A stretch of 64,000 bases of DNA, taken from assembly GCA_902806085.1 (NCBI GenBank), contig CADCVH010000102.1:62001-126000 (forward strand), written 5' to 3'. Positions 2,489 through 26,596 of this stretch are shown piece by piece. The stretch comes from an uncultured Rubrobacteraceae bacterium. GTDB taxonomy: Bacteria; Actinomycetota; Rubrobacteria; Rubrobacterales; Rubrobacteraceae. Within the stretch, counting starts at the first letter, position 1; every line of letters starts with the position of its first letter. Position numbers and translations under genes: made by a program. The notes beneath the pieces are model-generated. The model was not told the origin of the DNA. It saw only the letters and a list, made by a program, of their open reading frames with translations, and searched no databases.

Positions 2489-2504
2489 GCGAAAGGACTC
2501 CTTT

Positions 2505-3779
2505 ATGACGGACGCGGGCCGCGAGAGCCGCTTCAAGCTAGAGGCCACCCCCATAACCTTCGGGCCGGGATCTTCCGAGGAGGCCGGCTGGGAACTGAAG
2601 CAACTCGGGGTGAGTCGGGCCCTGATCCTGACGGACCCCGGCGTGGCCCGGTCCGGGATACCGGACAGAATCCGCGGCATCATAGAGGCCGAGGGCATAG
2701 GGTGCGAGGTCTTCGACCGGGTAAAGGTCGAGCCCTCGCTCGCCTCGATGCAGGAGGCGGCGGACTTTGCCGCGGAGGGCGGCTTCGACGGCTTCGTCGG
2801 CGTCGGCGGCGGGTCCAGCCTGGACACGGCGAAGGTGGCGAACCTTATCGCCACGCACCCGGCCCCCGTCATGGACTACATCTTCCCGCCGGTGGGAGCG
2901 GGCCGCAGGCCGCCGTCCCCCCTCAAGCCGTTCCTGGCGGTGCCGACCACGGCCGGGACGGGTTCGGAGGCGACCACCATCGCCGTGATGGACCTGCCGG
3001 ACCTCAGGACCAAGGCCGCCATCTCGCACCGCTTCCTGCGCCCCGACCACGGGATAGTGGACCCCCTGCTCACCTCGTCCATGCCCTCCGACGTTACGGC
3101 CGCCTGCGGCCTCGACGTCGCCTGCCACGCCGTCGAGTCGTTCACCGCCAAACCCTTCCACACGCGCCCGGCACCGGGCTCGCCGGACAAGAGGCCGCCG
3201 TTCCAGGGGGCCAACCCCGTCTCGGACCTCTGGGCCTCGACGGCGCTCGAGTACGCCGGGGAGTACCTGCGGCGGGCCGTGGCCGACGGCGGGGACGTCG
3301 AGGCGCGCGGGCGCATGATGCTAGGTGCCTCCATCGCGGGGATAGGGTTCGGCTCGGCGGGGACCGCGATCCCGCACGCCTGCGCCTACCCCATAGCGAG
3401 CCTCAAGCACGCCTTCCGGTCGCCCGGCTACCCGGAGGAGCCGTTCGTCCCGCACGGGTTCGCCGTCATCGTAACGGCGCCCGCCGCCTTCAGGTTCACC
3501 TACCCCGCCGACCCAGACAAGCACCGCCGCGCCGCCGAGCTGATCGCCGGAAAGCCTTTCCCCGACGCCGACGAAGACACGCTGCCGAACGTCCTGATCT
3601 CGCTGATGAAGGACGTCGGGGCCCCGGGCGGCCTGCTGGAGCTGGGCTACGACGAGGGGGACGTGGAGGGGCTCGTGGAGGGCGCGATCAAGCAGCAGCG
3701 CCAGCTCACCATCGCCCCCAAAGAGGCCGGACGCGACGACCTGGCCGAGATCTTCCGCGGGTCGATGCAAAACTGGTAA
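2505..3779 (+). CDS. Iron-containing alcohol dehydrogenase, hydroxyacid-oxoacid transhydrogenase-like
   Basis: GVGGGSSLDTAKVANL, VPTTAGTGSEAT and CGLDVACHAVESFTAKP...ANPVSDLWA motifs of Fe-ADH/HOT proteins. Confidence 0.85.
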   Translation: MTDAGRESRFKLEATPITFGPGSSEEAGWELKQLGVSRALILTDPGVARSGIPDRIRGIIEAEGIGCEVFDRVKVEPSLASMQEAADFAAEGGFDGFVGVGGGSSLDTAKVANLIATHPAPVMDYIFPPVGAGRRPPSPLKPFLAVPTTAGTGSEATTIAVMDLPDLRTKAAISHRFLRPDHGIVDPLLTSSMPSDVTAACGLDVACHAVESFTAKPFHTRPAPGSPDKRPPFQGANPVSDLWASTALEYAGEYLRRAVADGGDVEARGRMMLGASIAGIGFGSAGTAIPHACAYPIASLKHAFRSPGYPEEPFVPHGFAVIVTAPAAFRFTYPADPDKHRRAAELIAGKPFPDADEDTLPNVLISLMKDVGAPGGLLELGYDEGDVEGLVEGAIKQQRQLTIAPKEAGRDDLAEIFRGSMQNW

Positions 3780-3801: not shown

Positions 3802-5526
3802 TCAAGAAGGCTGGAGGGGTTCGGCCGGTTCGCTTCTTGGCGGGCGCCGTTCGAGGAGGCCTATGTCGCGTAGCGCGTCCCGCGTGGTGGGGTAGAGGAG
3901 GTCGCCGAACTTGTCGGGCCAGCCGGCGCTCTCCAGGCGTTCGCGGACCTGCAGCTTTGCGTGGGTGAGTACGACGCGTATGCCGTCGGAGCGGTAGCCG
4001 GAGACGAGGCTTTCGAGGCCTTCTACGGCGGTGACGTCTATGCCGTTCACGCCGCGGCAGTCGATGACGATCCAGCGCAGGCGGGGACGGTCGGCCACCG
4101 CCTCTATCAGCCACTCCTCTAGAAAGGGCACGTTGGCGTAGTAGAGCCTGGCGTCGAACCGGACGATGATGGCCTCGGGGTAGGTCCGGGCCTCGGAATA
4201 GCTTCTCAGGCCCAAAAAGGCGTTCTTGCGCGGCACGTAGCCGAGTTCGGTCACCTCAGGGTAGGCCGTGCGCCGCACGAAGGCGAGGAGGGCGAAGAGG
4301 GAGCCCGCGATGATGCCCTCCTCCACGCCCACGAGCAGCGTCAAGGCGAAGGTGAGCAGCATGGCGTAGCCGTCGGTCCGGCTCACGCCGAAGACGCGTC
4401 TGGCCTCCCCGAAGTCGAGCAGCCCGTACACGGCGACCACCACGATGGCGGCGAGCGCTGCGTCCGGCAGGTAGTAGAAGAGGGGCGTCAGGAAGAGGAG
4501 GGTCAGCAGGATCCCCGCCGCCGAGACGACAGAAGCCATCTGCGTCCTCGCCCCCGACTGGTACTGGACGGCGGTCCGCGAGAACGACCCCGCGACCGGC
4601 ATACCGGACAAGAAGCCTGCGCAGACGTTGGCGAGGCCGAGCGCCCGGAGCTCCGCGTCGGAGTCGATCTTGTACTTCTCCCTGGCGGCTACCGCCCGCG
4701 CCACGGAGATCGACTCCACGAACCCCACGAGGGCCACCGCCACCGCCGCCGGCGCCAGCGCCCGGAGGGCCCCCGGGTCGAGGGGCGGCACCGAGAACCC
4801 CGGCAGCCCGCCCGGCACCCCGCCCACGACCTCAACGCCCCGACCGTCGAGGCCTAGCCCGTAAACGGCGACGGCGCACCCGGCCGCCACCAGGAGGGAG
4901 CCGGGCAGCCGCGGGAACTTCTTCGCGAGAAGGACGAGCGCCACGACGCCCGTCGCCCCGATCGCCAGCGCGAAGGGGTTCGTCTCCCCGACGCTGCCCG
5001 AGAGCTCGGCCACGGTGCCAAGAGGGGACTCCTCGCCTGAGACCGGGATGCCGAGAAAGCTCCCGGCCTGCGCGAGCACGATGATGATCGCCGAGGCGTA
5101 CACGAAGCCGCTGAGAACCGGCCGCGGGATAAAGTTGGTGACGAACCCCATCCGCAGGAGCCCTAGGGCCAACTGCAGCGCGCCCGCCATGAGGGCGAGC
5201 AGCAGGGCGTAGGCAATGTACTCGCCGGACCCCGGCTCCGCGACAGCCGAGACCCCGGTAAAGGTGAGGAGCGCCATCAACGCCGGTGGGCCGACCGGCA
5301 TGTGCCGGGAGGTGCCGAACAGCGCGTAGACGACGGCCGGCCCGGTCGAGGCGTAGAGGCCGTGGACGGGCGGCAGGCCCGCGAGCACGGCGTACGCCAT
5401 GCCCTGCGGCACCAGCACGACCACCACCGCCAGCCCCGCCGAGAGGTCCCTGCGCAGGTCCTCCCGCCTGTAGGCCCCGAGCCAGCCGTAGGCCGGGACG
5501 AGCGCCTCCAGGGACCAGTGGTTCAA
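3802..5526 (-). CDS. SulP family sulfate permease with C-terminal STAS domain
   Basis: LSAGLAVVVVLVPQGMAYAVLAGLPPVHGLYAS...; STAS-like C-terminus (RWIVIDCRGVNGIDVTAVEGLESLV). Confidence 0.92.
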   Translation of the reverse strand: MNHWSLEALVPAYGWLGAYRREDLRRDLSAGLAVVVVLVPQGMAYAVLAGLPPVHGLYASTGPAVVYALFGTSRHMPVGPPALMALLTFTGVSAVAEPGSGEYIAYALLLALMAGALQLALGLLRMGFVTNFIPRPVLSGFVYASAIIIVLAQAGSFLGIPVSGEESPLGTVAELSGSVGETNPFALAIGATGVVALVLLAKKFPRLPGSLLVAAGCAVAVYGLGLDGRGVEVVGGVPGGLPGFSVPPLDPGALRALAPAAVAVALVGFVESISVARAVAAREKYKIDSDAELRALGLANVCAGFLSGMPVAGSFSRTAVQYQSGARTQMASVVSAAGILLTLLFLTPLFYYLPDAALAAIVVVAVYGLLDFGEARRVFGVSRTDGYAMLLTFALTLLVGVEEGIIAGSLFALLAFVRRTAYPEVTELGYVPRKNAFLGLRSYSEARTYPEAIIVRFDARLYYANVPFLEEWLIEAVADRPRLRWIVIDCRGVNGIDVTAVEGLESLVSGYRSDGIRVVLTHAKLQVRERLESAGWPDKFGDLLYPTTRDALRDIGLLERRPPRSEPAEPLQPS

Positions 5527-5542
5527 CGGCGTCCCGCCGTCC

Positions 5543-8437
5543 CTAGCCCCCGCCCTCGTAAAACGCCTCTCGGGCTGGCCTGTATGGCCTGTCGAACACC
5601 TCCGGGCGGCGGAGGCCGTCCTCCCGCGGGCCGGGGCGGGTCATGGCGAGCCAGCGGCGGTAGACCTCGCGGCTCTTGGCCGTGTCCACGAAGACGTCGC
5701 CGTAGCGGTCCTCCGGCCTCGCGGTCTCCACGTAGACGGCGTTGTGCCAGCAGTGCATCCCGCTTATGGGGTCGGGGTGGACGGGGAAGGTGAGGTTCTG
5801 GTGGACCCCTCCGTCGCTCCAGAAGATGCGGCTCGTGTCGGGGTCCGCGCTCTCGTAGGGGCCGGGGGCCTCGAGCTGGCGCAGGCGCCAGCCGCGCCCG
5901 TCGCGGCTGATGTCCACGAGGGAGTTGGTCCAGCGGTCGGCGCCGTCCTGCCGGCGGCGCCAGCGGCCGAGGTGGTGGGAGCAGGCGACGACGCCGGGAG
6001 CTATCGCTTCCGTCACCCAGGCATGGTTGACGGAGAAGCCGATCTCGGTCGTCACCCGCACGAGGTCGCCGGTCTCGATGCCCCGCCCTCTCGCGTCTTT
6101 CGGGTGGATCCACAAGGGGTTCTTGTTGGAGATCTCGTTAAGCCACTTGGAGTTGCCGGTCCTGGTGTGGATGAGGGTCGGCAACCGGAAGGTGGCGTTC
6201 AGGACGAGCTGCCCCTCTTCCAAATTCTCCGGGTGGACGTGGCTCTTTATGTAACCCGGCGCCGCGTGCTCGGGCCAGCCCCACGCGTCCATCGTGGGCG
6301 ACCAGATCTCCAGCTTGCCCGAGAGCGTCGGGAAACCCTCCCGCGCCTCCCCCCCAACCTCGACGCCGACGTGGGGCACGAGCCGGTTTGCCCGGATGAC
6401 GCCCCCCGTCCGGCTCTCTTCCGTGGTGACGGTGCCGTCGGCTTCGACCCTGCTCCCTTCGAGCTCCGCATCGGAGAGCTCCCTCATGTTCCGCTCGTAG
6501 ACCTCGTTCTGAACCTCGAAGGCGGCGTACTTTCGCATGTATTCGAGGGGCGTGAGGCCCTCCTCGGCGGCCTTTTCGGGGAGGCCGGGGACGGCGTTCT
6601 CGAAGAGCCAGCGGTAGTACTCCTCGACCGTAAGCTTCTCGCCCGGATGGTAGGGGCTCTCGAAGTGGCGCCGGATGCCCATCTCCCCGTCCGGGTCGAT
6701 GTGCCAGGAGAGGTCGATCCAGAACTCGTCGTCCTCCCACACCTCGCCCGGGTTGACCTCGTGGGTGCGCTCTACCGTCTCGCCCCGTCGCCGCGCCGCC
6801 TCCCGCAGGACGGGCTGGCGGAAGGAGAGCCACTTGCCCGAATGGGTCTCCTGGCTCATCAGGTCGTGGCGCTCGGGACCGTGGCCCAAAGGGAGCACGT
6901 AGTCCGCGAAGTACGCCGTCTCGCTCCAGGTCGGCGTGAGCGCCACGTGGCAGCCGATGGCCTCCTCGTCCTGGAGCGCCTCCATCCAGGCGAAGCCGTC
7001 CGGGAAGGTCCACACCGGGTTGAGGACGCGGCTGAAGTAGACGTCGAGCTTGCCCCTGCCCTCCATGAGGAAGTACGGAAGCAGTATGCTCATCTCGTAC
7101 TGGGCGAGCGGGTACTCGTCTGGGTAGAGGAGCCCGCTCCACACGTCCTGGGGGGGCGCCTCTTCCCAGTATGTGGGGAGCCACTTGTTCCACCCGTTCG
7201 GGCTCGTGCCGCCCTTGCGCCCCCAGCTTCCGGTCAAGACGTTCAGGAAGACCAAACAGCGCGAGACCTGCCAGCCGCCCAGGTTCCCCGCGGCGGCCGC
7301 CCGCCAGTTGTGCGCCGCCACCGCGGGGCCGGCCGCCCCGATGGTCCGCGCGGCCTCGACGATCCTCTCCGCCGGGACCCCGCTCTCCTCTTCCGCGTAC
7401 TCGAGCGTGTAGCCGGCGTAGTCCTCCTTCAGCGCCCCGACGAACGCCTCGAAGGAGCCTTTCGGGTCGTCCGGGTGCAGGTGCTCCAGGTACTGTTGCC
7501 AGTTCGTCCAGTCGCGCAGGAAGTCCCCGTCGAAGAGGTTTTCGTCCAGGATCACCTTCGCCATCGCGAGCAGGACGGCGGGTTCGGAGCCGGGGCGGGT
7601 GGGGAGCCAGTGGTCGGCCATGGCGGCGGAGTTGGAGAGCCGTGGGTCCATGACGATGAGCTTGGCGCCCTTCATCTTGCCCTCGATGATCCTCTGGGCG
7701 TGCGGGTTGAAGTAGTGGCCGCTCTCCAGGTGGGCGCTTATGAGGACTATGGCCTTGGCGTTGGCGTAGTCCGGCGAGGGCCGGTCGAAGCCGCCCCAGA
7801 GCTGGTAGCCGAACCTGCCGCCGCTTGAGCAGACGTTCGTGTGGGAGTTGTGGGCGTCGACACCCCAGGCGCGGAAGATCCTCTCCATGTGCTGGTGCTC
7901 GTGCCCGGGCCTGCCTACGTGGTACATGACCCCGTCCCTGCGGTCCTCGGATATGGCCTTGCGTATCCGGCCGCCGATGTCCGCGAGCGCCTCCTCCCAG
8001 GAGACGCGCTCCCACCGGCCGCTCCCGCGCGGGCCCGCGCGCTTTTGCGGGTAGAGGATGCGTTCCGGGTCCTTTACCTGGTTGATGGTGGCAGGACCCT
8101 TGGCGCAGTTGCGCCCGCGGCTGCCGGGGTGCAAAGGGTGGCCCTCGAACTTGCGGATCTCGCCGTTCTCTTTGTCCACGTAGGAGAGCAGGCCGCAGGC
8201 CGCCTCGCAGTTGAAGCAGACGGTTGGCACGATCTGGTAGCTCTTCTTCTCTTTGCGCGTCCAGCCCCGCGCCTCGTACTCGGTCCAGTCGTCCCACCGC
8301 TCCGGGGGCGGGAAGTCCACCAGCCCGGAGCCGGGGACAAGCCGATCCGGCCGGTCCTCCGGTTTGTCCACGCCGGCGAGGAGGCCAAGCCTCGTCGCCG
8401 CCCTCTCCACGAACGACCTCTCGGGCTCTTTGCGCAT
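5543..8437 (-). CDS. Molybdopterin oxidoreductase catalytic subunit (CISM family; candidate SoeA-like sulfite dehydrogenase)
   Basis: N-terminal FeS motif CFNCEAACG...GRNCAKG; VMDPRLSNSAAMADHWLPTRPGSEPAVLLAM; C-terminal MoCo-binding domain. N-terminus (MRKEPERSFVERAATRLGLL) lacks a twin-arginine signal followed by a hydrophobic segment. Substrate is not determinable from sequence alone. Confidence 0.85.
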   Translation of the reverse strand: MRKEPERSFVERAATRLGLLAGVDKPEDRPDRLVPGSGLVDFPPPERWDDWTEYEARGWTRKEKKSYQIVPTVCFNCEAACGLLSYVDKENGEIRKFEGHPLHPGSRGRNCAKGPATINQVKDPERILYPQKRAGPRGSGRWERVSWEEALADIGGRIRKAISEDRRDGVMYHVGRPGHEHQHMERIFRAWGVDAHNSHTNVCSSGGRFGYQLWGGFDRPSPDYANAKAIVLISAHLESGHYFNPHAQRIIEGKMKGAKLIVMDPRLSNSAAMADHWLPTRPGSEPAVLLAMAKVILDENLFDGDFLRDWTNWQQYLEHLHPDDPKGSFEAFVGALKEDYAGYTLEYAEEESGVPAERIVEAARTIGAAGPAVAAHNWRAAAAGNLGGWQVSRCLVFLNVLTGSWGRKGGTSPNGWNKWLPTYWEEAPPQDVWSGLLYPDEYPLAQYEMSILLPYFLMEGRGKLDVYFSRVLNPVWTFPDGFAWMEALQDEEAIGCHVALTPTWSETAYFADYVLPLGHGPERHDLMSQETHSGKWLSFRQPVLREAARRRGETVERTHEVNPGEVWEDDEFWIDLSWHIDPDGEMGIRRHFESPYHPGEKLTVEEYYRWLFENAVPGLPEKAAEEGLTPLEYMRKYAAFEVQNEVYERNMRELSDAELEGSRVEADGTVTTEESRTGGVIRANRLVPHVGVEVGGEAREGFPTLSGKLEIWSPTMDAWGWPEHAAPGYIKSHVHPENLEEGQLVLNATFRLPTLIHTRTGNSKWLNEISNKNPLWIHPKDARGRGIETGDLVRVTTEIGFSVNHAWVTEAIAPGVVACSHHLGRWRRRQDGADRWTNSLVDISRDGRGWRLRQLEAPGPYESADPDTSRIFWSDGGVHQNLTFPVHPDPISGMHCWHNAVYVETARPEDRYGDVFVDTAKSREVYRRWLAMTRPGPREDGLRRPEVFDRPYRPAREAFYEGGG

Positions 8438-8451
8438 CTTGACCTTTCCTT

Positions 8452-10038
8452 CTAGGCGAGCGGGACGAGTTGGGGGGCTTCGATCCAGGCGTGCTCGGTG
8501 ACGAGTATCCCCGCCAGGGCGAGCACCGCCGCGGCCCCCACGAGCGCCGGCGCGCCGCTCGCCAGCAGGACGAGCGGAACCAGCGTCCCGAGCACGACCG
8601 AGCCCCCCCAGAAGAGCACCCTGTAGCGGCCCGCGTAGATCATGCGCGCCGCCCGCCCGGCGTCCCGGTCCGGGTGCTCCATCCCGAGCTCGGCCCCCAG
8701 CACGAGCCCGCCCACGACGAGGCCGAGCGCGAGCGTGACCTCAAGCGCCCCCCGCAGCGGCCCGATGCCCCCGACAAAGAACGAGGCCAGGTACAGCGCC
8801 GCCGCCCCCGCGACGGCCGCGTGGGCGAGCATGTGCAGCGGCAGCGCCGGGCTCTGCCAGAAGCTGCGCCCCTTGGACTGCCCGAACAGGAACGCCGTGT
8901 ACACCGCCGTCGCGAGCGCGAGGATTACCAGAGGCCAGGCCAGGACCGCCGTCGCCCGGGGGACGCCGAGCAGTTCCAAGAGGACCCAGAGGGAGAGCGC
9001 GCCGCCGAAGGCGGTGATGATGTAGGCGCCCCTGGTGAGCCAGCTTCTCCACTGCGGGCGCAGGAGCACGTAGTGGAAGCGATCGGGGCGGTCGAGGTCG
9101 AGGATGAGCAGGCCGCCCGTCGCGGCCATGAAGACGAGGCCCAGGATCGCGCCGGCCCACAAAGCCGCCCCCGGAACCCCGAAGCCCAGCCCCGCCGCGA
9201 GGAAAGGCACGGCGACCGACCCGGTGGCGATGGCCTTGGTCCACACGTAGGCCGGCACCTCCTTGCCCCACTGCACGCCCTTGTTCGGCTCGTCGTAGGT
9301 GCGCCGCGCCTTCTCGGGCTGCCGTTCGGGTTGGGGGTTGCCCCCGCCCGGCTTCTTGCCCAGGGGTATGACGCCGCCGGCGAGGGAGGCCTTGGTCCCC
9401 TTGCCGTCTGGCGCGTGGTGCCCGACGCCGCGGCGCTGGTTGGACCACATGTAGTCCGAGGAGACGGGGGCGTCGTCGGGGGTAAGGGCGGCCTCGTCGC
9501 CGTTTATGTAGAAGAGCTTCGGTTTCGTGCCCTTCTCCGGGCGGCGGGTCGTCACCTTCTCGCGGGCGAGGAGCTTGCTTATCGGGGTCTCGGGGTCGTC
9601 CATGTCCCCGCTGATGATCGCCTCTTCGGGGCAGACGTTCACGCACGCCGGTTCCAGGCCCACGTCGACCCTGTGGGCGCAGTAGTTGCACTTGGCGGCC
9701 GTGTGCGAATCGGGGTCGATGTAGAGGGCGTCGTAGGGGCACGCCTGCATGCAGGCCTTGCAACCGATGCACCGGTCCCAGTTGAAGTCCACGATCCCGT
9801 CGTCCCTGATGTAGAGCGCCGTCACCGGGCACGCCTCCACGCAGGGCGCGTCCTCGCAGTGCATGCACCGCATCACGTGGAAGGCCCGCTGGGTGTCGGG
9901 GAACTCGCCCTTCTCGATGTACTTGACCCAGGTGCGGTTTACGCCGACGGGGACCTCGTGCTCGGCCTTGCAGGCAACCGTGCAGGCGTGGCACCCGATG
10001 CACTTGCGGTTGTCGATGATGAAACCGTAGTTGGTCAC
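8452..10038 (-). CDS. Fusion protein: 4Fe-4S ferredoxin-type electron-transfer subunit + NrfD/DmsC-like membrane anchor
   Basis: First ~180 aa carry multiple CxxCxxC clusters (CIGCHACTVACKAEHEV, CMHCEDAPCVEACPV, CIGCKACMQACPYDAL, CNYCAHRV...CVNVCPEEAI). A linker is followed by ~290 aa of hydrophobic helices typical of NrfD. Confidence 0.9.
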   Translation of the reverse strand: MTNYGFIIDNRKCIGCHACTVACKAEHEVPVGVNRTWVKYIEKGEFPDTQRAFHVMRCMHCEDAPCVEACPVTALYIRDDGIVDFNWDRCIGCKACMQACPYDALYIDPDSHTAAKCNYCAHRVDVGLEPACVNVCPEEAIISGDMDDPETPISKLLAREKVTTRRPEKGTKPKLFYINGDEAALTPDDAPVSSDYMWSNQRRGVGHHAPDGKGTKASLAGGVIPLGKKPGGGNPQPERQPEKARRTYDEPNKGVQWGKEVPAYVWTKAIATGSVAVPFLAAGLGFGVPGAALWAGAILGLVFMAATGGLLILDLDRPDRFHYVLLRPQWRSWLTRGAYIITAFGGALSLWVLLELLGVPRATAVLAWPLVILALATAVYTAFLFGQSKGRSFWQSPALPLHMLAHAAVAGAAALYLASFFVGGIGPLRGALEVTLALGLVVGGLVLGAELGMEHPDRDAGRAARMIYAGRYRVLFWGGSVVLGTLVPLVLLASGAPALVGAAAVLALAGILVTEHAWIEAPQLVPLA

Positions 10039-10140
10039 CCCGCCGCCTCTCCCGTAGAAGCTCCTGCCCCGTCACGGCGATCATAGACGCGCCGGCGTTC
10101 TGGCGACAATAGCTTCTTCCTATGGCGGTAGAGGCCCCCT

Positions 10141-11055
10141 CTATCGGGCCTGGTCCGGAACCCGCCCCGGCCCCTGGCCCATCTCGCCGACCAGGTTCAT
10201 GAAGGCCGCGGCGGTGCCGGTGAGGGGCACGTCCTTGCGGCGCAGGGCCACGATGGTCCTCCCGAGCTTCGGGCAGGCGTCTATCCTCACCGTGGCGAGC
10301 CTGCCCGCGGCGACCGCCCGGAGGACCGCCGGTTCGGGCAGGAACGCGACCCCGAGCCCCTGCTCGACCATCCTCTTGGCCGCCTCGATGTTGTCCAGCT
10401 CCACCACGTCCGGCCCGGCGACGCCGGCGTCCCGGAAGAGGGACTTCGTTAGCTCGTAGCTCGTCGAGGCGCGGTCGAAGAGGATCAGGCGCTCCCCCCC
10501 GAGCTCCGCAAGCCCCACGTCCCGCCTCCCCGCGAAGGCGTGCCCCTTGCCCACCGCGAGGACGAGCTCCTCTTCGTAGAGCGGCAGGCTCTCGACCTCG
10601 GGGTGGCGCATGGAGCGCGCGAGGCCGAGCTGCACCTCCTCGCTAAGGACCATCTCCAGGATGTCCTCGGAGTGCCCGGTCTTTACCGAGAGGACGACGC
10701 CGGGGTGGGCGAGCGAGAAGCCCTCCAGAAAGCCCGGCAGGGCGTAGGTGCTGACCCGCGGCAGCGCGCCGAGCCTGAGGTGCCCCCCCGTGCCCTTTCG
10801 CAGCTCCTCCAGGTGCTGCTTGCCGTTCGCGACGCTCGTGACGGCGCGCTCGGCGTAGGGGAGAAACTGCCGCCCGGCCTCCGTGAGCCGCATCCCCGAG
10901 CGCGTGCGCACGAAGAGTTGGTCGCCGACCTCGTGCTCCAGCGCCTTGAGCCTCGCCGTGAGCGACGGTTGGGCGAGGAACATCTCCTCCGCGGCCCGGC
11001 TCATGCTGCCGGCCCGCGCCACCGCCAGAAAACACTCCAACTGCCCGAACAACAT
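10141..11055 (-). CDS. LysR-family transcriptional regulator
   Basis: MLFGQLECFLAVARAGSMSRAAEEMFLAQPSLTARLKALEHEVGDQLFVRTRSGMRLTEAGRQFLPYA is the LysR HTH. Start placed at 11055 rather than the longer ORF start. Confidence 0.92.
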   Translation of the reverse strand: MLFGQLECFLAVARAGSMSRAAEEMFLAQPSLTARLKALEHEVGDQLFVRTRSGMRLTEAGRQFLPYAERAVTSVANGKQHLEELRKGTGGHLRLGALPRVSTYALPGFLEGFSLAHPGVVLSVKTGHSEDILEMVLSEEVQLGLARSMRHPEVESLPLYEEELVLAVGKGHAFAGRRDVGLAELGGERLILFDRASTSYELTKSLFRDAGVAGPDVVELDNIEAAKRMVEQGLGVAFLPEPAVLRAVAAGRLATVRIDACPKLGRTIVALRRKDVPLTGTAAAFMNLVGEMGQGPGRVPDQAR

Positions 11056-11148
11056 CCCCGGTCTCCTCACTCTCCGCCACCACGGTAGCAAAGTCTGGCG
11101 GCAGCGGCAATCGTCTTGACGGCCCACCGGCCGTTCTGCTAGCGTGCG

Positions 11149-11171
11149 TTGTGCACGTTCGGTGTGAACAA
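11149..11171. promoter_or_regulatory. Candidate LysR operator dyad in the divergent intergenic region
   Basis: TTGTGCAC-N7-GTGAACAA (7 of 8 positions symmetric), between the divergent lysR and xsc genes and downstream of a TTGAC element at about 11115. Confidence 0.4.
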
Positions 11172-11352
11172 TGAACCCGTGCGAGGGTGCCCGGTCCCAT
11201 TGTGTGAGGTTATAACTGTGGCCGATGGCGACCCACAAAAAGCCGATGAATGTAGCTCTTGACACAAAAACCCCCGCGGACGATGATGATTTTTGGGCCG
11301 TACCGGGGGGGACCGGTCGGGTACCGGGTTCGAGACAGGAGGAGGATCGAAA

Positions 11353-13113
11353 GTGGCCAAGGTGAGAATGACGCCCAGTGAGGCGATAGTAGAGACGCTG
11401 GTGGCCGAGGGCGTGGACCACGTCTCCGGGATAGTGGGGTCGGCGTTCATGGACGCGCTCGACCTGTTCCCAGACGCGGGCATAGACTTCGTGCCGGTGC
11501 GCCACGAGCAGAGTGCCGCGCACATGGAGGACGCGTGGGGCCGGATCACCGGGCGGGCCGGGGTGGTCGTTGGGCAGAACGGGCCCGGCATCACCAACAT
11601 GGTGACCTCCGTGGCCGCGGCCAACATGGCGCACACGCCGATGGTCGTGATCTCGCCGTCGGCCGGCACCGGCACCATCGGCTGGGACGGCTTCCAGGAG
11701 AGCGACCAGGTGAGCATCTTCAAGGCCATCACCAAGGCGACCGTCGAGGTCACCCACCCCAGGAGGGCCGCCGACGTTCTACGCACCGCCTTCCGCATCG
11801 CCTACGCCGAGCGCGGGCCCGTCCTCTACGACATACCCCGCGACTACTTCTACGGGGAGCTCGAAGAAGAGATCCTGCGCCCCGACCAGTACCGCGCCGA
11901 CATGCGCAGCAAGGGCTCCCCCGAGTCCCTGGACAAGGCGGCGGAACTCCTCGCGAACGCCAAAAACCCCGTCATCATCGCCGGCAAGGGCGTGGTGGAC
12001 GGTGGCGCCGTCGCGACCGTGAAGGCCCTGGCCGAGTACCTGACCGCCCCCGTGGCGGCATCCTACCTGCACAACGACGCCTTCCCGGCCGACCACCACC
12101 TGGCCGTCGGGCCGCTCGGGTACATGGGCTCCAAGGCGGCGATGAAGCTTGCTTCGGAGGCCGACGTGGTGCTGGCGCTCGGGTGCCGGCTCTCGGTGTT
12201 CGGGACCGTGCCGCAGTACGACGTGGACTGGTTCCCCAAAGGGGCGAAGATCGTTCAGGTGGACATCAACCCGAAGCAGATCGGGCGCACCCACCCCATC
12301 GAGGTCGGCATCGTGGGCGACGCGAGGGAGGCGGGGGAGGAGATCTTCGTCCGCCTCAAGACGAAGTCCAAAAACGGCGGCCCGAACCGGGAGCGGATCT
12401 CGAGGATCGAGGCCGAGAAGAGGGCCTGGAAGGAGGAACAGGTCTCGCTGGCGATGGAGGACGGGGACCCGATCCACCCGCGCCGGGCCTTGCTCGAGAT
12501 GTCCCGCGTCCTCCCCGAGAACGCGATCGTGACCACGGACATCGGCAACGTCTGCTCCACCTCCAACGGCTACTTCGAGTTCACGCAGCCGCGCAAGTTC
12601 ATAGCCGCCCTTACGTTCGGCAACTGCGGCTTCGCGTACCCGGCGGCGCTCGGGGCCCAGATCGCGCGCCCCGAAGACCCCGTGCTTGCCGTCGTGGGCG
12701 ACGGGGCGTGGGGCATGAGCCTGCACGAGGTCTCGACGGCCGTCGAGCAGAACCTCCCCGTCGTGGCGTGCGTCTTCAACAACAAGAAGTGGGGGGCCGA
12801 GCAGCGCAACCAGGTGGACTTCTACAACAACCGCTTCGTCGGCTCGGAGATAGACGGCCCCAACTTTGCCGAGGTCGGCCGGGCCATGGGCGCCGACGGC
12901 GTGCTCGTGGAGGACCCGAACGATGTCGGCGACGCGGTCGCGGAGGCCATAAGCTCCCGCCGGCCCACCGTGCTGGACATCCGGGTGGACGGGACGCAAC
13001 TGGCGCCCCCGTTCCGGCGCGACGCCCTCAAGATGCCCGAGCGCTTCCTGGAGAAGTACGCCGGCACCGACCACCGCAACTGGGCGAAGGAGCCGGCCGG
13101 GGCCTCTTCGTAA
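11353..13113 (+). CDS. xsc: Sulfoacetaldehyde acetyltransferase (ThDP-dependent)
   Basis: Strong resemblance to Xsc: [38 protein letters not shown]...[10 protein letters not shown]...[10 protein letters not shown]; ThDP motif [34 protein letters not shown] start at 11353. Confidence 0.85.
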
Positions 13114-13146
13114 AAAACGTCCCGGCCGGAGAGGGATCGGAGGACG

Positions 13147-14535
13147 ATGCAGGACACCAGGGAGCTTCTGGAGAGGGATCGCCGCTACGTCTGGCACGCG
13201 ATGACGGGGCACAACCCCAAGGCGGCGACGATGGTGGTGACGGAGGCCGACGGGGCGTGGGTGACGGACTCGAACGGCAACCGCTACCTGGACGGCATGG
13301 CCGGGCAGTGGTCGGTCAACGCGGGGTACGGCCGCGAGGAGCTCGCGCGGGCGGCCTACGACCAGCTCAAGGTCATGCCCTTCTACCCCATGATCCAGGG
13401 CCATTTGCCGGCCATCGAGCTCGGCGAGAAGCTGAACGAGTGGCTCGACGACGAGTACGTGTTCTTCTACTCCAACTCCGGCTCAGAGGCGAACGACGTG
13501 GCGTTCAAGATCGCCCGCCAGTACCACCAGCAGAACGGCGACCCGGGCCGCTGGAAGTTCGTCGCCCGCTACCGGGGCTACCACGGCAACACGCTGGGTT
13601 CGCTCGCCGCCACCGGGCACGCGCAGCGCAAGTACAGCTACGAGCCGCTGGCCCCCGGCTTCCTGCACGTCTCGCCCCCCGACGGATACCGCTGCATCTA
13701 CTGCGACGGCGGGGGGACTTGCGGCAGGGCGTGCGCCCTAAAGTACGCGCAGGAGATAGGGCGCGTCATCAACTGGGAGCTCGCGGAGACGGTGGCGGGC
13801 GTCATCATAGAGCCCATCATCACCGGCGGCGGCGTCCTCGTCCCACCCGAGGGATACGTGGAGGAGGTCGCCAGGATCTGCGAGGAGAGCGGCGTCCTGC
13901 TCATCGTCGACGAGGTCATCTGCGGCTTCGGCAGGACCGGCAAAAAGTTCGGCCACCAGCACTACGGCATAAAGCCGGACATCGTCACGATGGCCAAAGG
14001 GATAACGTCTTCCTACATGCCGCTCTCGGCCACGGCCGTCAAGCGCGAGCTCTTCGAGAAGTTCGGGGGCACCGAGGAGTACGGGCGCCTGCGCCACATA
14101 AACACCTTCGGCGGCCACCCCGCCGCCTGCGCCGTCGCGGTAAGGAACCTGCGGATCTTGGAAGAAGAGGGGTTGGTCGGGCGCTCCGCCGAGATGGGCG
14201 AGAAGCTGGGGTCGGGGCTGGCCGGGCTCGAAGGTAACCCGCACGTCGGGCAGGTTCGGGGGAAGGGCCTCCTGTTCGGCATCGAGGTGGTGGAGGACAA
14301 GGAGGGCCGCCAGCCCGCGACCGCCGAGAGGATGGGCAGCATCATCTCGGGCTGCAAGGAACGGGGGCTTATCGTCGGCAAGAACGGCGACACCACGCCG
14401 GGCTTGGGCAACGTGGTCACGATCTGCCCCCCGTTGAACCTGACAGACGACGACCTGGCGTTCATGACCGGCACCTTGAAGGAGGTTTTCGCGGGTTCCG
14501 GCGGCGAGAGGCCGGTGAGGCCGCCCGTCGCCTGA
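13147..14535 (+). CDS. tpa: Class III aminotransferase, taurine:pyruvate aminotransferase-like
   Basis: DSNGNRYLDGMAGQWSVNAGYGREELA, SNSGSEANDVAFKIARQYH, IVDEVICGFGRTGKKFGHQHYGIKPDIVTMAKGITSSYMPLSA. Specificity assigned partly from adjacency to xsc. Confidence 0.8.
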   Translation: MQDTRELLERDRRYVWHAMTGHNPKAATMVVTEADGAWVTDSNGNRYLDGMAGQWSVNAGYGREELARAAYDQLKVMPFYPMIQGHLPAIELGEKLNEWLDDEYVFFYSNSGSEANDVAFKIARQYHQQNGDPGRWKFVARYRGYHGNTLGSLAATGHAQRKYSYEPLAPGFLHVSPPDGYRCIYCDGGGTCGRACALKYAQEIGRVINWELAETVAGVIIEPIITGGGVLVPPEGYVEEVARICEESGVLLIVDEVICGFGRTGKKFGHQHYGIKPDIVTMAKGITSSYMPLSATAVKRELFEKFGGTEEYGRLRHINTFGGHPAACAVAVRNLRILEEEGLVGRSAEMGEKLGSGLAGLEGNPHVGQVRGKGLLFGIEVVEDKEGRQPATAERMGSIISGCKERGLIVGKNGDTTPGLGNVVTICPPLNLTDDDLAFMTGTLKEVFAGSGGERPVRPPVA

Positions 14536-14669
14536 GGGGAGAAGGGACGAATTCTTGTACCTCCGGCCGAAGATTCGGAGCCGGCGATGGTCTAAAACTC
14601 GCGTGGGCAAGACGGTCCGCGGTTTCGTAATCTCTACTGGTGGAGTAGACAGATAGCCTGGGAGGTGGC

Positions 14670-16070
14670 ATGGAGGGTCAGGGACCGCAAGGGAGTGGGC
14701 TTCAGCACAGCCTGAAGCGCAGGCACATGTCCATGATCGCGCTTGGGGGTGTGATCGGGGCCGGCCTGTTCGTCGGCAGCGGGGTGGTGATGAGCCAGAC
14801 GGGCCCGGCGGCGGTGGTCTCCTTCATCATAACGGGTGTGCTCGTGATCCTGGTGATGCGGATGCTGGGCGAGATGGCCGTGGCCTACCCGGCCATCGGC
14901 GGGTTCTACGAGTACAGCCGCCTCTCGATGGGCAACCTGGCCGGTTTCCTGACCGGCTGGATGTACTGGTACTTCTGGGTGATAGTCGTGGCACTTGAGG
15001 CGGTCGCAGGGGCGACCTTGTTGCAGTACTGGTTACCCGACGTGCCGTCCTGGATTTTTGCCCTGGTGCTCATGGTGATCTTCACCATCACGAACCTACT
15101 CTCGGTGCGCAACTACGGCGAGTTCGAGTTCTGGTTCGCCTCCATCAAGGTCGCGGCGATCGTCGTGTTCCTCTTCCTGGGCGCCCTGTTCGTGCTCGGC
15201 CTGTGGCCCGACGCGAACGTCGGGTTCTCCAACCTGGCCGGCAACGGCGGCTTCGCGCCCAACGGCCTCGCGCCGATACTGACGGGCGCGGTGGCGGCGA
15301 CGGGCTTCTACTTCGGCGCGGAGATAGTCACCATCGCCGCGGCCGAGTCGGCGGAGCCAGAGAACGCCGTGGCGAAGGCCACGAACTCCGTGATCACGCG
15401 CGTCCTGATCTTCTACGTCGGCTCCGTCTTCCTCGTCGTCTGCATCATCCCCTGGAACTCGAGCGCCATCGAGACGCCCTACGTGAGCGCGCTCGAGGCG
15501 CTAGGCATTCCCGCCGCCGCCAACATCATGAACGCGGTCGTGCTTACCGCCGTGCTCTCGGCCCTGAACTCGGGCCTCTACGCCTCATCGAGGATGCTGA
15601 TGGCGCTGGCGAGGAAGGGCGACGCCCCCGCGTTGTTCTCCAGGCTGAGCGGCAACGGCGTTCCGGTGCTGGCGATACTCGCCGGCACGGTCTTCGGGTA
15701 CGTCGCGGTCTTTATGTCCTACATCTCTCCGGAGACCGTGTTCGCTTTTCTCGTCAGCTCCTACGGGACGGTCGCCATCTTCGTCTACGTCCTGATCGCC
15801 ATCAGCCAGCTCTTCCTACGCCGCAGGCTGGAGCGGGAGAGCCCCGAACGCCTGCGCGTGAAGATGTGGGCCTTCCCGTACCTGACGATCCTCGCGATCC
15901 TCGGCATGGTCTCCATCGTCGTGGCGATGGCGTTTATCCCGGACCAACAGAGGCCCCTGCTCTTCGGCGTCATCAGCCTCGCCGTGCTCCTCGTGGCCTA
16001 CGTGCCGCGCTATTTCCTGGGACCCAAGCAGACGCCGGCCACCACGTCGCCGGCCAACGACCGCGGGTAG
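14670..16070 (+). CDS. APC-superfamily amino acid permease
   Basis: LKRRHMSMIALGGVIGAGLFVGSGVVMSQTGPAAVVSFIITGVLVILVMRMLGEMAVAYP. Confidence 0.92.
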   Translation: MEGQGPQGSGLQHSLKRRHMSMIALGGVIGAGLFVGSGVVMSQTGPAAVVSFIITGVLVILVMRMLGEMAVAYPAIGGFYEYSRLSMGNLAGFLTGWMYWYFWVIVVALEAVAGATLLQYWLPDVPSWIFALVLMVIFTITNLLSVRNYGEFEFWFASIKVAAIVVFLFLGALFVLGLWPDANVGFSNLAGNGGFAPNGLAPILTGAVAATGFYFGAEIVTIAAAESAEPENAVAKATNSVITRVLIFYVGSVFLVVCIIPWNSSAIETPYVSALEALGIPAAANIMNAVVLTAVLSALNSGLYASSRMLMALARKGDAPALFSRLSGNGVPVLAILAGTVFGYVAVFMSYISPETVFAFLVSSYGTVAIFVYVLIAISQLFLRRRLERESPERLRVKMWAFPYLTILAILGMVSIVVAMAFIPDQQRPLLFGVISLAVLLVAYVPRYFLGPKQTPATTSPANDRG

Positions 16071-16250
16071 GGCGCTGCAACCGAAGGGCGCAACCGCCGG
16101 CATACGGCCCGCCGAAGCACCGGAGGCCGGGCCCGTCAGCGACCGCGTCCGCGCGTCCTACGCGAAGTACGTGGGGCGCACCGGCAGGGAACCGGCGCCC
16201 ATGTTGGTGGACTGCGCCGCCGCCATCGAGGCCGGCGGGGCGCGGGTGCC

Positions 16251-16295
16251 GGTGGGCTACCTGGTGGGCTACCTGGTGGGCTACCTGGTGGGCTA
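16251..16295. repeat. 12-bp tandem repeat (GGTGGGCTACCT), ~3.8 copies
   Basis: ggtgggctacctggtgggctacctggtgggctacctggtgggctac; translates as VGYLVGYLVGYLVGY in the small ORF 16171-16368. Confidence 0.9.
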
Positions 16296-16364
16296 CCGGC
16301 GCGTCTTTACGAGGAAGTGGCTGGGGTTGCCTCATAAAAGCGGGACCGGAGAGGGGGCTGGCGC

Positions 16365-16589
16365 GTGAGGTATTTCAACCCGTGGAGCGTCGTGGTCGGG
16401 CTGGTGGTTCCGTTCCTCGCCGTCGTGGGCGGGGTTGCGGTCCTGGGCCGGTCTCAGGCGCTGGTCCTCGGGATGCCGGTGGCGTTTCTCTGGATCTTCG
16501 TGTGGTTCCTGCTCACCTCGGTGTGCCTCGCGGTCAGCTGGTACGTCTTCGACAGTCGGTACTACGAGGACGAGGAGGACGATAGATGA
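16365..16589 (+). CDS. Small membrane protein preceding the sodium:solute symporter (DUF3311/DUF485-like)
   Basis: 74 aa, two hydrophobic segments; stop overlaps the start of the SSS transporter. Confidence 0.65.
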   Translation: MRYFNPWSVVVGLVVPFLAVVGGVAVLGRSQALVLGMPVAFLWIFVWFLLTSVCLAVSWYVFDSRYYEDEEDDR

Positions 16590-18031
16590 CCGTCGTCATA
16601 TTCGGCGCGATCATCGCGCTCTCGCTCTTCGTTGCGTTCATGGCGAGCCGCGGCAAGGACGTGCTCCAGATCGAGGAGTACCTGGTCGGGGGCAGGTCGT
16701 TCTCCGGGATGCTGCTCTTCTTCCTGGCGGTCGGGGAGATCTACAGCATCGGCACGATGGTGGGGCTCCCCGGGGGCATCTACGCGGAGGGCGCGGCCTA
16801 CGGGGTCTGGTTTCTCGGCTACATCGTGCTCGCCTACCCGGTGGGTTACTTTCTGGGGCCGCTAATGTGGCGGGCGGGCAAGCGCTACGGGGCCATGACC
16901 GTCCCGGACGTGTTCAAGGGGCACTACCGGAGCCGCGTGCTGGAGGTCGTCGCGGCGGTGAGCGCTCTGGTCTTCCTGATCCCCTGGGGACAGCTCCAGT
17001 TCACGGGCTTGCAGGTAGCACTCGGGGCTCTTGGGTTCGAGATCTCGCCCTCCGTGGCCGTGATGATCGCGGCGGTGATAGCCTTCGCCTACATCGTCGT
17101 CTCGGGGGTGAGGGCCCCGGCGAACGTCTCCATCCTCAAGGACATCTTGCTCTTCGGGGCCATCGTGATCGTCGGCGTCGCGGCGGCCTCCGCCGCGGGC
17201 GGCGTGGGCAACGTCTTCGAGAGGGCCGGGGAGGCGAACCCCGCCACGCTCTCGGTCGGCGGGGGCGAGGCGATGACGTTCGCGTTGACGACCATCGTGT
17301 TTCAGGCTCTCGGGTTCTACGTGACGCCGCTCACGGTGCCGTTCCTGTTCACCGGGCGCTCGGAGGGGACGGTCAGGCGGACCCTGATCCCGATGCCCCT
17401 CTACATGCTGATGTTCCCGTTCCTCGTGATCGCCGCGTACTACGCCATAGGCGCCTCGCCGAACCTGGAGGAGCCTAACGCCGCGCTCTTCGTGACGGCG
17501 GTCGAGGTGCTGCCGGGCTGGCTGCTGGGGCTCGTGGCCGGGGCCGCGGCCCTCTCGGGCCTCTTGGTGCTCGCGGGCTTGAGCCTCGTCGTCGGCGCCG
17601 TCGTCTCGCGCAACTTCGCGCCGAACATGCCTGGCTCCTCCCAGAGGCGGCTCGTGCAGGTGGTCGTTGCCCTGTACCTCATCCTCTCCGCCGGCCTCAC
17701 CATCCTCGCCCCTACCCTGATGCTGGCCCTCGTCAACACGGCGTACTACGGCTTTACGCAGTTCCTCCCGGCGTTTGTCGGGGTCTTTTTCGTCCGCCGG
17801 TTCACCGCCACGGGCATCGCGGTTGGCCTTATCGTCGGCGACGTTTCCGTGCTCGCGCTGTACGGCCTCGGGGTGAGCCTCGGCGGCGTCAACATCGGGC
17901 TGGTGGCGCTCCTGATCAACTTCGCCGTGGTCTTTGCCGTGAGCGCCGCGACCAAGGGCACCGCGTCTCTCTCCCCCATAGCCGCCTCCAGGCAACCGGG
18001 AAACCCGCCCACCGAAGGGAGCACCCCATGA
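16586..18031 (+). CDS. Sodium:solute symporter (SSS) family transporter
   Basis: IEEYLVGGRSFSGMLLFFLAVGEIYSIGTMVGLPGGIYAEGAAYGVWFLGY and many hydrophobic helices. Confidence 0.88.
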   Translation: MTVVIFGAIIALSLFVAFMASRGKDVLQIEEYLVGGRSFSGMLLFFLAVGEIYSIGTMVGLPGGIYAEGAAYGVWFLGYIVLAYPVGYFLGPLMWRAGKRYGAMTVPDVFKGHYRSRVLEVVAAVSALVFLIPWGQLQFTGLQVALGALGFEISPSVAVMIAAVIAFAYIVVSGVRAPANVSILKDILLFGAIVIVGVAAASAAGGVGNVFERAGEANPATLSVGGGEAMTFALTTIVFQALGFYVTPLTVPFLFTGRSEGTVRRTLIPMPLYMLMFPFLVIAAYYAIGASPNLEEPNAALFVTAVEVLPGWLLGLVAGAAALSGLLVLAGLSLVVGAVVSRNFAPNMPGSSQRRLVQVVVALYLILSAGLTILAPTLMLALVNTAYYGFTQFLPAFVGVFFVRRFTATGIAVGLIVGDVSVLALYGLGVSLGGVNIGLVALLINFAVVFAVSAATKGTASLSPIAASRQPGNPPTEGSTP

Positions 18032-19638
18032 ACGGCGACTGCGTGCTTGTAGGCAAGATCCACACCCTCGACCCCTCGAACCCCACAGCCGAAGCCCTCG
18101 CCATCCGCGACGGCAAGATCTCCTACGTCGGGGACGCCGACGGGGCGAGACGGCAGGCCGGGCCGAACGCCGAGACGATAGACCTCGGGAACCGGGTGGC
18201 CCTTCCCGGCTTCGTCGAGTCCCACAGCCACCCCATCTACTACGGGCGCTACCTGGAAGAGGTGGACTGCCGCTACGCCACGTCGCTCGACGACATAGTC
18301 GGGTTGCTGGGGGAACGGGCGAGGGAGACCCCGCCGGGACAGTGGGTCGTGGGCAACGGCTACGACCACACCCTCTTGAAAGAGTCGCGCCACCCCACCC
18401 GCCTGGAGCTCGACCGGGCGAGCGGGAACCACCCCGTAATGCTCAGGAACATCACCGGGCACTGCACGGTCGTAAACTCCCGTTCGCTCGAACTCGCCGG
18501 TATCACCCACAAGACGCCCGACCCCGTGGGCGGGCGCATAGGCCGGGAGGCTGGCGGGGGGCCCGACGGCGTCCTCTGGGAGTGGGCGCGGATGCTCCTC
18601 CAGGAGCACCTCCCCGAGCCCGCCACGGAGGACATCGTGCGCTACCTGCACAACGCGAGCGGGCGGTACCTGGCAGCCGGCGTCACGTCCGTGGTCGACG
18701 CGGCCATAGGCTTCAACTACGGGATTCGGGACGCCGAGGTGTACGCGAAGGTCGCGGGCGACGGGGGGCTGCCGCTGCGGTACGGAGCGGCGATCATGTA
18801 CGACGTGTGGAAGGAGCTTCAGGGAGGGGCCGGACCGGGCCTCGATTGGCCGGGGGATCCCGACAGGGTCCGCCCCCTCGCCGTCAAGTTCTTCCAGGAC
18901 GGGTCCATCCAGATAAAGACCGCGGCGCTGCGCGAGCCGTATCTCGGGGAGACGGAGCCGGCCGACCATCACGTGATCTGGCCCCAGGAAGAGCTCGACC
19001 GGATGTTCGCCGACGCGCACGCGGCCGGGTGGCAGATCTGGACGCACGGCAACGGCGACGCCGCCATAGGCTCGATCATCGACGCCTACGAGAAGGCCAT
19101 CTCCGGCGTCCCACGCACGGACCACCGGCACCGCGTCGAGCACTGCCAGACCGCGGGCGAGGACCAGCTCGACCGCATGAGGGACCTCGGGGTAACGGCC
19201 TCCTTTTTTGCCCCGCACGTCTGGCACTGGGGGGACCGCCACCGCGAGCTCTTCCTCGGAGAGGAGCGGGCCTCCCGCATGGACCCGCTTGCCTCCGCCG
19301 CGCGCCGCGGCATGAGGTTCGGCCTCCACAACGACAGCCCGGTCACCCCGGTCAGCGCCCTCCTCTCCGTCGGCACCGCCGCCAGCCGCCGCACGAGCGG
19401 GGGCGAGGTGCTCGGCATCGAGCAGGCCATCCCGGTCGAAGCCGCCCTGCGCTCGATGACGGTGGACGCGGCCTACCTCGCCTTCGAGGAGGGCCGGAAA
19501 GGAACGCTCTCTGAGGGCAAGCTCGGGGACGTCGTGGTCCTCGAGGCGGACCCGTTCGAGGTGGGGCCGGAGGAGATCAAAGACGTCCCCGTCGCCATGA
19601 CCATCGTCGGCGGCGAGGTGGCCCACGTCGCGGACTAG
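18028..19638 (+). CDS. Amidohydrolase (YtcJ-like, amidohydrolase family 3)
   Basis: ALPGFVESHSHPIYYG, TVVNSRSLELAGIT, HGNGDAAIGSIIDAYEKA, RVEHCQTA, FGLHNDSPVTPVSALLSV. Confidence 0.88.
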   Translation: MNGDCVLVGKIHTLDPSNPTAEALAIRDGKISYVGDADGARRQAGPNAETIDLGNRVALPGFVESHSHPIYYGRYLEEVDCRYATSLDDIVGLLGERARETPPGQWVVGNGYDHTLLKESRHPTRLELDRASGNHPVMLRNITGHCTVVNSRSLELAGITHKTPDPVGGRIGREAGGGPDGVLWEWARMLLQEHLPEPATEDIVRYLHNASGRYLAAGVTSVVDAAIGFNYGIRDAEVYAKVAGDGGLPLRYGAAIMYDVWKELQGGAGPGLDWPGDPDRVRPLAVKFFQDGSIQIKTAALREPYLGETEPADHHVIWPQEELDRMFADAHAAGWQIWTHGNGDAAIGSIIDAYEKAISGVPRTDHRHRVEHCQTAGEDQLDRMRDLGVTASFFAPHVWHWGDRHRELFLGEERASRMDPLASAARRGMRFGLHNDSPVTPVSALLSVGTAASRRTSGGEVLGIEQAIPVEAALRSMTVDAAYLAFEEGRKGTLSEGKLGDVVVLEADPFEVGPEEIKDVPVAMTIVGGEVAHVAD

Positions 19639-19644
19639 CGCCCG

Positions 19645-20883
19645 TTGAGGGTCCTCTCGGTCAACTGCGGCTCCTCGACGCTGAAGTTCAAGCTCGTCGA
19701 TGTGGGGGAGAACGCCCGGGAATTGGCCGGCGGCGTCGTCGAGCGGATAGGGGGCGAGGGGCCTTCCCTGCTCTTTCGCACAAACGGCGTCGCGACGCGG
19801 GAACCCGTGGCGCGGGAGCCCGTGGCGGCCCCCGACCACGAGGCCGCGATCCGTCGGGTCCTGGACCGTCTCTCTTCCGCCGGCTTTACGGGCCGCGACG
19901 GGCCGGACGCCATCGGCCATCGCGTCGTCCATGGCGGGGAGCATTTCGCGGGGCCCGCCCTTATAGACGAGGGGGTGATGTCCGCCATCCACCGGCTCGG
20001 CGAGCTTGCGCCGCTCCACAACGGTCCGGCGGTCGCGGCCATACGGGCCGCCCGCGAGACGGCCGGGCCCGGCGTCCCGATGGTGGCGGTCTTCGACACC
20101 GCCTTCCACCGGACCATGCCCGAGCGCGCCGCCCGCTACGCCATCCCCCGGGAGCTCGCGGAGAGGCACCGCATCCGGCGCTACGGCTTCCACGGCACCG
20201 CCCACCGTTGCATGGTCCGGCGCTACGCCGGCCTCACGGGGAGGCCGGTCGAGGACGTCAGGCTCGTCACGTTGCAGCTAGGGAACGGCTGTTCGGCGGC
20301 GGCCGTTGAGGGCGGGCGCTCGGTCGATACCTCGATGGGTTTCACGCCGCTTGAGGGGTTGGTGATGGGGACGCGCTCGGGGAGCGTGGACCCGGCCCTG
20401 ATCCCCTACCTCGCCCGCCGCGAGGGCGTGGACGCGGCGGAGGTCGAGGGCTGGCTCAACAGGCGCTCCGGCCTCCTCGGCGTCTCCGGGACTTCCCGCG
20501 ACGTGCGGGAGCTGCTGGAGGCCGAGGCGGGGGGCGACGCGGACGCGGCCCTGGCTCTCGAGATGTTCTGCTACGGGGTTCGCAAGCAGGTCGGGGCCTA
20601 CCTGGCCGCGCTGGATGGTGCTGACGCCGTGGTCTTCGGCGGCGGCATCGGGGAGAACGCGCCGTCGATACGGGCGCGCGTCTGCGCCGGCATGGGCTGG
20701 TGCGGGCTCGTCCTGGACGGGGGGCGCAACGACCGCGCCGTGGGCGTCGCCGTGGGCGTCGGCGCCAGGATCAGCGCGGACCACTCGGGGATCGACGCCT
20801 ACGTCATCCCGGTGGACGAGGAGACGGCCATCGCGGAGGACACCGCCCGCTGCCTGCGCCCCCGCGAGGGAGACGCAGGGTGA
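19645..20883 (+). CDS. ackA: Acetate kinase
   Basis: VNCGSSTLKFKLVD, GHRVVHGGEHF, FDTAFHRTMP, RYGFHGTAH, LQLGNGCSAAAVEGGRSVDTSMGFTPLEGLVMGTRSG, VFGGGIGENAPSIR. Confidence 0.92.
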   Translation: MRVLSVNCGSSTLKFKLVDVGENARELAGGVVERIGGEGPSLLFRTNGVATREPVAREPVAAPDHEAAIRRVLDRLSSAGFTGRDGPDAIGHRVVHGGEHFAGPALIDEGVMSAIHRLGELAPLHNGPAVAAIRAARETAGPGVPMVAVFDTAFHRTMPERAARYAIPRELAERHRIRRYGFHGTAHRCMVRRYAGLTGRPVEDVRLVTLQLGNGCSAAAVEGGRSVDTSMGFTPLEGLVMGTRSGSVDPALIPYLARREGVDAAEVEGWLNRRSGLLGVSGTSRDVRELLEAEAGGDADAALALEMFCYGVRKQVGAYLAALDGADAVVFGGGIGENAPSIRARVCAGMGWCGLVLDGGRNDRAVGVAVGVGARISADHSGIDAYVIPVDEETAIAEDTARCLRPREGDAG

Positions 20884-22560: not shown

Positions 22561-22561
22561 G

Positions 22562-26596
<4,035 letters not shown>

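Follow-up and report, generated by a model that had tools for sequence, protein, structure and literature searches.

A predicted taurine dissimilation locus of an uncultured Rubrobacteraceae bacterium with a candidate sulfite-oxidizing molybdoenzyme outside the SoeA clade

Gene content of the locus

We analyzed a stretch of 64,000 nucleotides (hereafter, the window) from the genome of an uncultured Rubrobacteraceae bacterium, in which a preliminary description had recognized two divergent gene arms between positions 3802 and 20883, namely one encoding Xsc, an aminotransferase and AckA, and another encoding a LysR-family regulator, an FeS-NrfD fusion, a molybdoenzyme and a SulP-STAS permease. 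All these genes are intact open reading frames at the coordinates reported, with family matches far above chance, and the shared intergenic region, described as about 300 bp long, measures 291 bp. The interval between the aminotransferase and AckA holds additional genes that were missing from that description: an APC permease, a DUF3311 ORF with an SSS symporter, and an Amidohydro_3 hydrolase. The features of the locus are the following:

3802..5526, minus strand: SulP-STAS permease, probable sulfate/sulfite mover (TIGR00815, 448 bits, cut-off 380; PF00916 and PF01740)
5543..8437, minus strand: catalytic subunit of the MopB/DMSO reductase family, 964 aa, hereafter MoA (PF04879, PF00384, PF01568)
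8452..10038, minus strand: FeS-NrfD fusion, 528 aa (PF13247 and PF03916)
10141..11055, minus strand: LysR-family regulator, 304 aa, first gene of the left arm (PF00126 and PF03466)
11056..11346, no strand: divergent control region, 291 bp, with the LysR start set at 11055
11347..13113, plus strand: Xsc, sulfoacetaldehyde acetyltransferase (TIGR03457, 835 bits, cut-off 676; core start at 11368)
13147..14535, plus strand: class-III aminotransferase, probable Tpa (PRK07678, 713 bits, cut-off 488; the model is not substrate-specific)
14670..16070, plus strand: GABA-permease-like APC transporter, probable taurine uptake (TIGR01773, 545 bits, below the cut-off of 678)
16365..16589, plus strand: small DUF3311 membrane protein that probably acts with the SSS symporter (PF11755, 38.6 bits)
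16586..18031, plus strand: sodium:solute symporter family (SSS) protein, MctP-like (PF00474; MctP model 164 bits, below cut-off)
18028..19638, plus strand: Amidohydro_3 (YtcJ-like) hydrolase (PF07969, 364 bits)
19645..20883, plus strand: AckA, acetate kinase family (TIGR00016, 408 bits, cut-off 293)

The divergent region contains a predicted sigma-70-like element directed toward Xsc (TTGACA-17-GATGAT, 11259-11287, recognized by consensus match) and an imperfect 15-nt inverted repeat at 11168-11203, a sequence pattern. In the gap after the APC permease, positions 16251-16297 comprise a perfect 12-bp tandem repeat of 3.9 copies. The locus is flanked on one side by plus-strand genes for an MHS-family MFS transporter and an iron-containing alcohol dehydrogenase (Fe-ADH) that converge on SulP (1136-3779); the top NCBIfam model for the latter (2505-3779) is the sulfoacetaldehyde reductase SarD, with a score far under the cut-off, and this pair is possibly an isethionate feeder. 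On the other side, beyond the end of AckA, the minus strand encodes a GGDEF response regulator and a 1344-aa hybrid histidine kinase (21592-26596).

The taurine arm and the carbon route

The assignment of the taurine arm (Tpa, Xsc and AckA) is well supported, and the locus is probably involved in the dissimilation of taurine to acetate. In a profile search, Xsc scores above the cut-off in only 3 of the 39 genomes of the window's family. In one of these, the same-genus genome G002, the gene order Xsc-Tpa-APC-amidohydrolase is retained, with 87, 81, 83 and 77% identity, respectively. G002 has no SSS symporter between the APC permease and the hydrolase, which overlap by 4 bp there, so that the DUF3311-SSS pair of the window appears as an insert relative to G002 (16071-16589 gap region).

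The aminotransferase passes only the general PRK07678 model and shows 38-40% identity to its Roseobacter homologs; it is the probable taurine:pyruvate aminotransferase. The tested transporter models give no substrate-specific assignment for either the APC or the SSS protein, the former being a probable taurine uptake system. The Amidohydro_3 hydrolase we take to be of the COG1574/YtcJ type. Given that the Tpa assignment is not specific and that the operon includes an amidohydrolase and a second transporter, Xsc could serve another sulfonate, such as N-acyltaurine or isethionate (the latter via the Fe-ADH, with its best, albeit below cut-off, match to a sulfoacetaldehyde reductase), or another omega-amino compound. 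We consider this unlikely, because two genomes have the aminotransferase gene immediately after that of Xsc and the TauR taurine regulons of proteobacteria are reported to include GabP permeases and COG1574 proteins (PMC5320631).

A family search of the window's genome produced no match to Pta; two AlaDH proteins and Acs score above the respective cut-offs. In a genome with this complement, acetyl phosphate should leave via AckA, which fits the branch formed by AckA and an acetate-CoA ligase; according to a published account, no TauR regulon contains both Pta and AckA (PMC5320631). Taurine would thus enter through the APC permease and be converted by the class-III aminotransferase to sulfoacetaldehyde, with alanine recycled by AlaDH, as suggested by the family memberships; Xsc, identified with an equivalog model, would yield acetyl phosphate and sulfite, AckA would produce acetate and ATP, and Acs would activate the acetate. 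Of the complete pathway from taurine to acetate and sulfate that had been proposed initially, the supported part is this carbon route, linked with SulP and with a cytoplasm-facing molybdoenzyme that probably oxidizes sulfite; the sulfite step and the role of SulP are predictions.

The molybdoenzyme and its membrane anchor

MoA contains a [4Fe-4S] motif (C74-x2-C77-x3-C81...C111 in the alignment) and a cysteine, Cys203, that is invariant in its clade, aligns with a cysteine of PsrA and ArrA, and is the probable Mo ligand. Full-length matches were obtained in Thermomicrobium roseum (62% identity), Rhodococcus jostii RHA1 (59%) and haloarchaea (52-56%) and, at a greater distance, in Sulfurovum mangrovi (38%) and Azoarcus KH32C (32%). 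The similarity to reference SoeA amounts to approximately 32% identity over residues 64-326 only.

The preliminary description had compared the enzyme with SoeABC, the cytoplasm-facing sulfite-oxidizing complex. Identity with SoeABC is not supported. We constructed a tree of 25 rows that included SoeA from Ruegeria pomeroyi, Roseovarius litoreus, Shimia thalassica, Gemmobacter aestuarii, Thiospirillum jenense and Aquifex. These references were retrieved with plasmid-protein queries of A. vinosum, R. pomeroyi and Aquifex (A. vinosum itself was not recovered), and R. pomeroyi was assigned from the arrangement of its genes relative to Xsc and from a published annotation that gives the order soeC-soeB-soeA-pta (PMC4334477). 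SoeA (6 rows, support 100/100) and the clade of the window protein (13 rows, 100/99) are separate in this tree, which has long branches and in which PsrA and ArrA are represented by the aligned portions of PDB chains and the Sulfurovum row joins two frames. Furthermore, the FeS-NrfD anchor is a fusion, unlike the SoeB and DmsC-type SoeC of R. pomeroyi. MoA is a member of an unnamed MopB clade, as delineated by sequence comparison, together with actinobacterial, Thermomicrobium, Rhodococcus and haloarchaeal proteins; among openly accessible papers, we found none that describes this clade.

With regard to the deeper relationships, the AU test did not reject a single clade of the MoA group and SoeA (p = 0.062) or the MoA group and ArrA (p = 0.35, with the ArrA row being a fragment). 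The possibility that the enzyme clusters with reductases, which had been raised at the outset, found no support for PsrA/PhsA, this grouping being rejected (p = 0.006), yet MoA lies outside SoeA as well. The scores with the PhsA (203 bits, cut-off 694), TtrA (99 bits, cut-off 1750) and ArrA (103 bits, cut-off 1600) models are all far below the respective cut-offs.

Two side observations pertain to individual members of the clade. One genome (G030:C1:1532893-1535778; L021 / L040) carries a MoA copy with frame breaks, the match being interrupted by 2 TGA and 1 TAA codons; it may be a pseudogene or result from an assembly error, and its neighbors are a broken dioxygenase-like gene and two copies of SulP. 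The gene that follows the MoA-clade gene of Rhodococcus RHA1 and Natrinema (L049, L050) encodes an FeS-carrier ATPase of the Mrp/NBP35 type, which may act as a maturation factor.

The lack of an evident Tat signal in the molybdoenzyme, noted previously, was borne out by a pattern test, which finds twin-arginine leaders in the Azoarcus and Sulfurovum proteins and in PhsA and misses the TtrA control; two weak, charged matches (L040, L041) were not counted as leaders. The fused subunit consists of a four-cluster ferredoxin domain (residues 1-200 contain 16 Cys) and an NrfD anchor with 8 TMs. The anchor loops located on the same side as the FeS domain contain 11 K/R residues vs 2 on the opposite side. 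The same bias is observed in 35 of 36 homologs (L132 is ambiguous), and it is reversed in the separate NrfD proteins of the Tat-bearing relatives (2 vs 10 in Azoarcus, 5 vs 15 in Sulfurovum). Together with the absence of a Tat leader, the positive-inside rule predicts a cytoplasmic location for the FeS/catalytic side, that is, where Xsc releases sulfite. We infer that the MoA complex faces the cytoplasm; SoeABC has been placed on the N-side as well (PMC8076601).

Genomic context and the likely substrate

The FeSNrfD-MoA cassette is present in 42 of the 396 sampled genomes of the phylum and, in the window's own family, is usually accompanied by SulP. We examined 41 MoA loci outside the window, with a reach of approximately 9 kb, against 38 control regions (18 random regions and 20 neighborhoods of other MopB genes). 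A sulfite-forming enzyme is encoded near 23 of the 41 loci (persulfide dioxygenase-rhodanese type in 22, Xsc in 1) vs none of the controls, a count of loci rather than of independent events, although the loci span about ten families plus Rhodococcus. With exclusion of the three loci from which the probe sequences were taken, the ratio is 20/38 vs 0/38 (p = 6e-8). SulP is adjacent to MoA in 21 of the 41 relatives vs 0/38 controls; SQR was found at 9 and TusA/DsrE at 8 of the 41 loci, and neither in the controls. The dioxygenase-type neighbor matches the solved MBL-rhodanese proteins 3tp9 and 3r2u, the latter of the S. aureus CstB type.

In another member of the family (G035), the FeSNrfD-MoA-SulP cassette is followed by Xsc (80% identity) and SauS (683 bits, cut-off 600), along with genes for SucC- and SucD-like proteins, for a member of the Pta family and for a transporter of the MatC/CitMHS type; judging by the encoded families, this neighbor of the cassette is a sulfoacetate operon (SauS-Xsc-Pta). 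Persulfide dioxygenase, Xsc acting in taurine degradation and Xsc acting in sulfoacetate degradation share one product, sulfite, so that the context supports sulfite oxidation, and the MoA complex is likely a cytoplasm-facing sulfite dehydrogenase.

Several observations go against this assignment: MoA lies outside the SoeA clade, the window's genome encodes a SUOX-type enzyme elsewhere, G002 carries Xsc without a MoA-type enzyme, and most of the MoA-clade loci contain sulfide/persulfide genes rather than Xsc. Accordingly, MoA might act on a different sulfur compound (thiosulfate, sulfane sulfur, polysulfide or tetrathionate), the adjacency to Xsc being secondary, as could be surmised from the proximity of most of its relatives to SQR, persulfide dioxygenase-rhodanese and TusA/DsrE, from PhsA/PsrA being the top-scoring models and structures, and from the existence of Tat-bearing relatives in Sulfurovum and Azoarcus. 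Nevertheless, the neighboring pathway in both the window and G035 gives only sulfite and no sulfane sulfur, and the rejected PsrA/PhsA grouping and the low model scores point in the same direction, so we view such an activity as rather improbable.

The sulfite formed from taurine could also be oxidized by a SUOX-type enzyme or exported by a TauE-like neighbor of the latter, with MoA serving some other function: the same genome encodes a Mo-co dimer domain protein (L111, G000:C53; PF00174 and PF03404) that adjoins a TauE-like ORF. However, this gene is unlinked to the taurine genes, its product scores under the SorA and SorT cut-offs, and SUOX-type enzymes are absent from G002 and G035, the two other Xsc-bearing genomes of the family; we regard this scenario as improbable. 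Mutual exclusion of SUOX-type enzymes and MoA is not significant (p = 0.23); among the 39 family genomes, the two co-occur only in that of the window.

On the whole, we favor, with reasonable confidence, the reading that this is a taurine dissimilation locus in which a MopB enzyme other than SoeA oxidizes sulfite on the cytoplasmic side of the membrane. Sulfite would be oxidized in place by the Mo-bisPGD subunit, the four FeS clusters of the fused subunit would relay the electrons to quinone, which would be reduced at the NrfD domain, and SulP is predicted to move the resulting anion. More tentatively, and with somewhat less than even confidence, the MoA complexes of Actinobacteriota, Thermomicrobia and haloarchaea could be viewed as a second and independent sulfite:quinone dehydrogenase family that faces the cytoplasm and draws on several sources of sulfite (persulfide dioxygenase, taurine and sulfoacetate). 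Their ancestors might have been Tat-exported, periplasm-facing MopB enzymes in which the NrfD anchor later flipped within the membrane and became joined to the FeS subunit. Homology to soeA is a common basis for predicting sulfite oxidation, an approach that would miss the MoA clade. If active on sulfite, MoA would be the sulfite-oxidizing step for many actinobacterial oxidizers of sulfide and sulfonates, and there would be a pair of related complexes with apparently flipped membrane orientation.

Comparison with known systems

The relatives from Sulfurovum mangrovi and Azoarcus KH32C belong to the same clade as MoA (100/99) but carry a Tat leader, are accompanied by a TorD chaperone, have FeS and NrfD encoded by separate genes and show the reversed charge bias of NrfD. 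In Azoarcus (plasmid pAZKH; L052 5251-13142), the operon that encodes the Tat-bearing relative and TorD is located close to an arsenite efflux gene. The SoeABC complexes of Allochromatium, Aquifex and Ruegeria share several features with the predicted complex: a large MopB subunit of comparable length that lacks a Tat leader and has a probable Cys ligand of Mo, a four-cluster FeS protein, a membrane anchor and an inferred cytoplasmic side. The differences are the separate clade with sequence similarity confined to a portion of the catalytic subunit, and the fusion of FeS and NrfD as opposed to the separate SoeB and DmsC-type SoeC of R. pomeroyi.

A close parallel in gene content is with the taurine loci of Roseobacters (R. 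pomeroyi, Shimia, Gemmobacter), which combine Tpa/Xsc, AckA or Pta and a cytoplasmic sulfite dehydrogenase within a single neighborhood. In these, canonical SoeAB is encoded beside Xsc and AckA or Tpa, as indicated by our neighborhood comparison and by published data (PMC4334477); the taurine route described for Roseobacters, including Roseovarius sp. 217, involves the same gene combination (PMC5320631, PMC10356861), and bisC-dmsC-hybA is present in some TauR regulons (PMC5320631). The locus described here differs in that its Xsc is only about 41% identical, the regulator is LysR instead of the MocR-family TauR, and the sulfite enzyme is non-orthologous and accompanied by SulP. Thus, the logic of the pathway is known from Roseobacters, and MoA is likely, judging from sequence and gene context, a non-orthologous stand-in that works like SoeABC.
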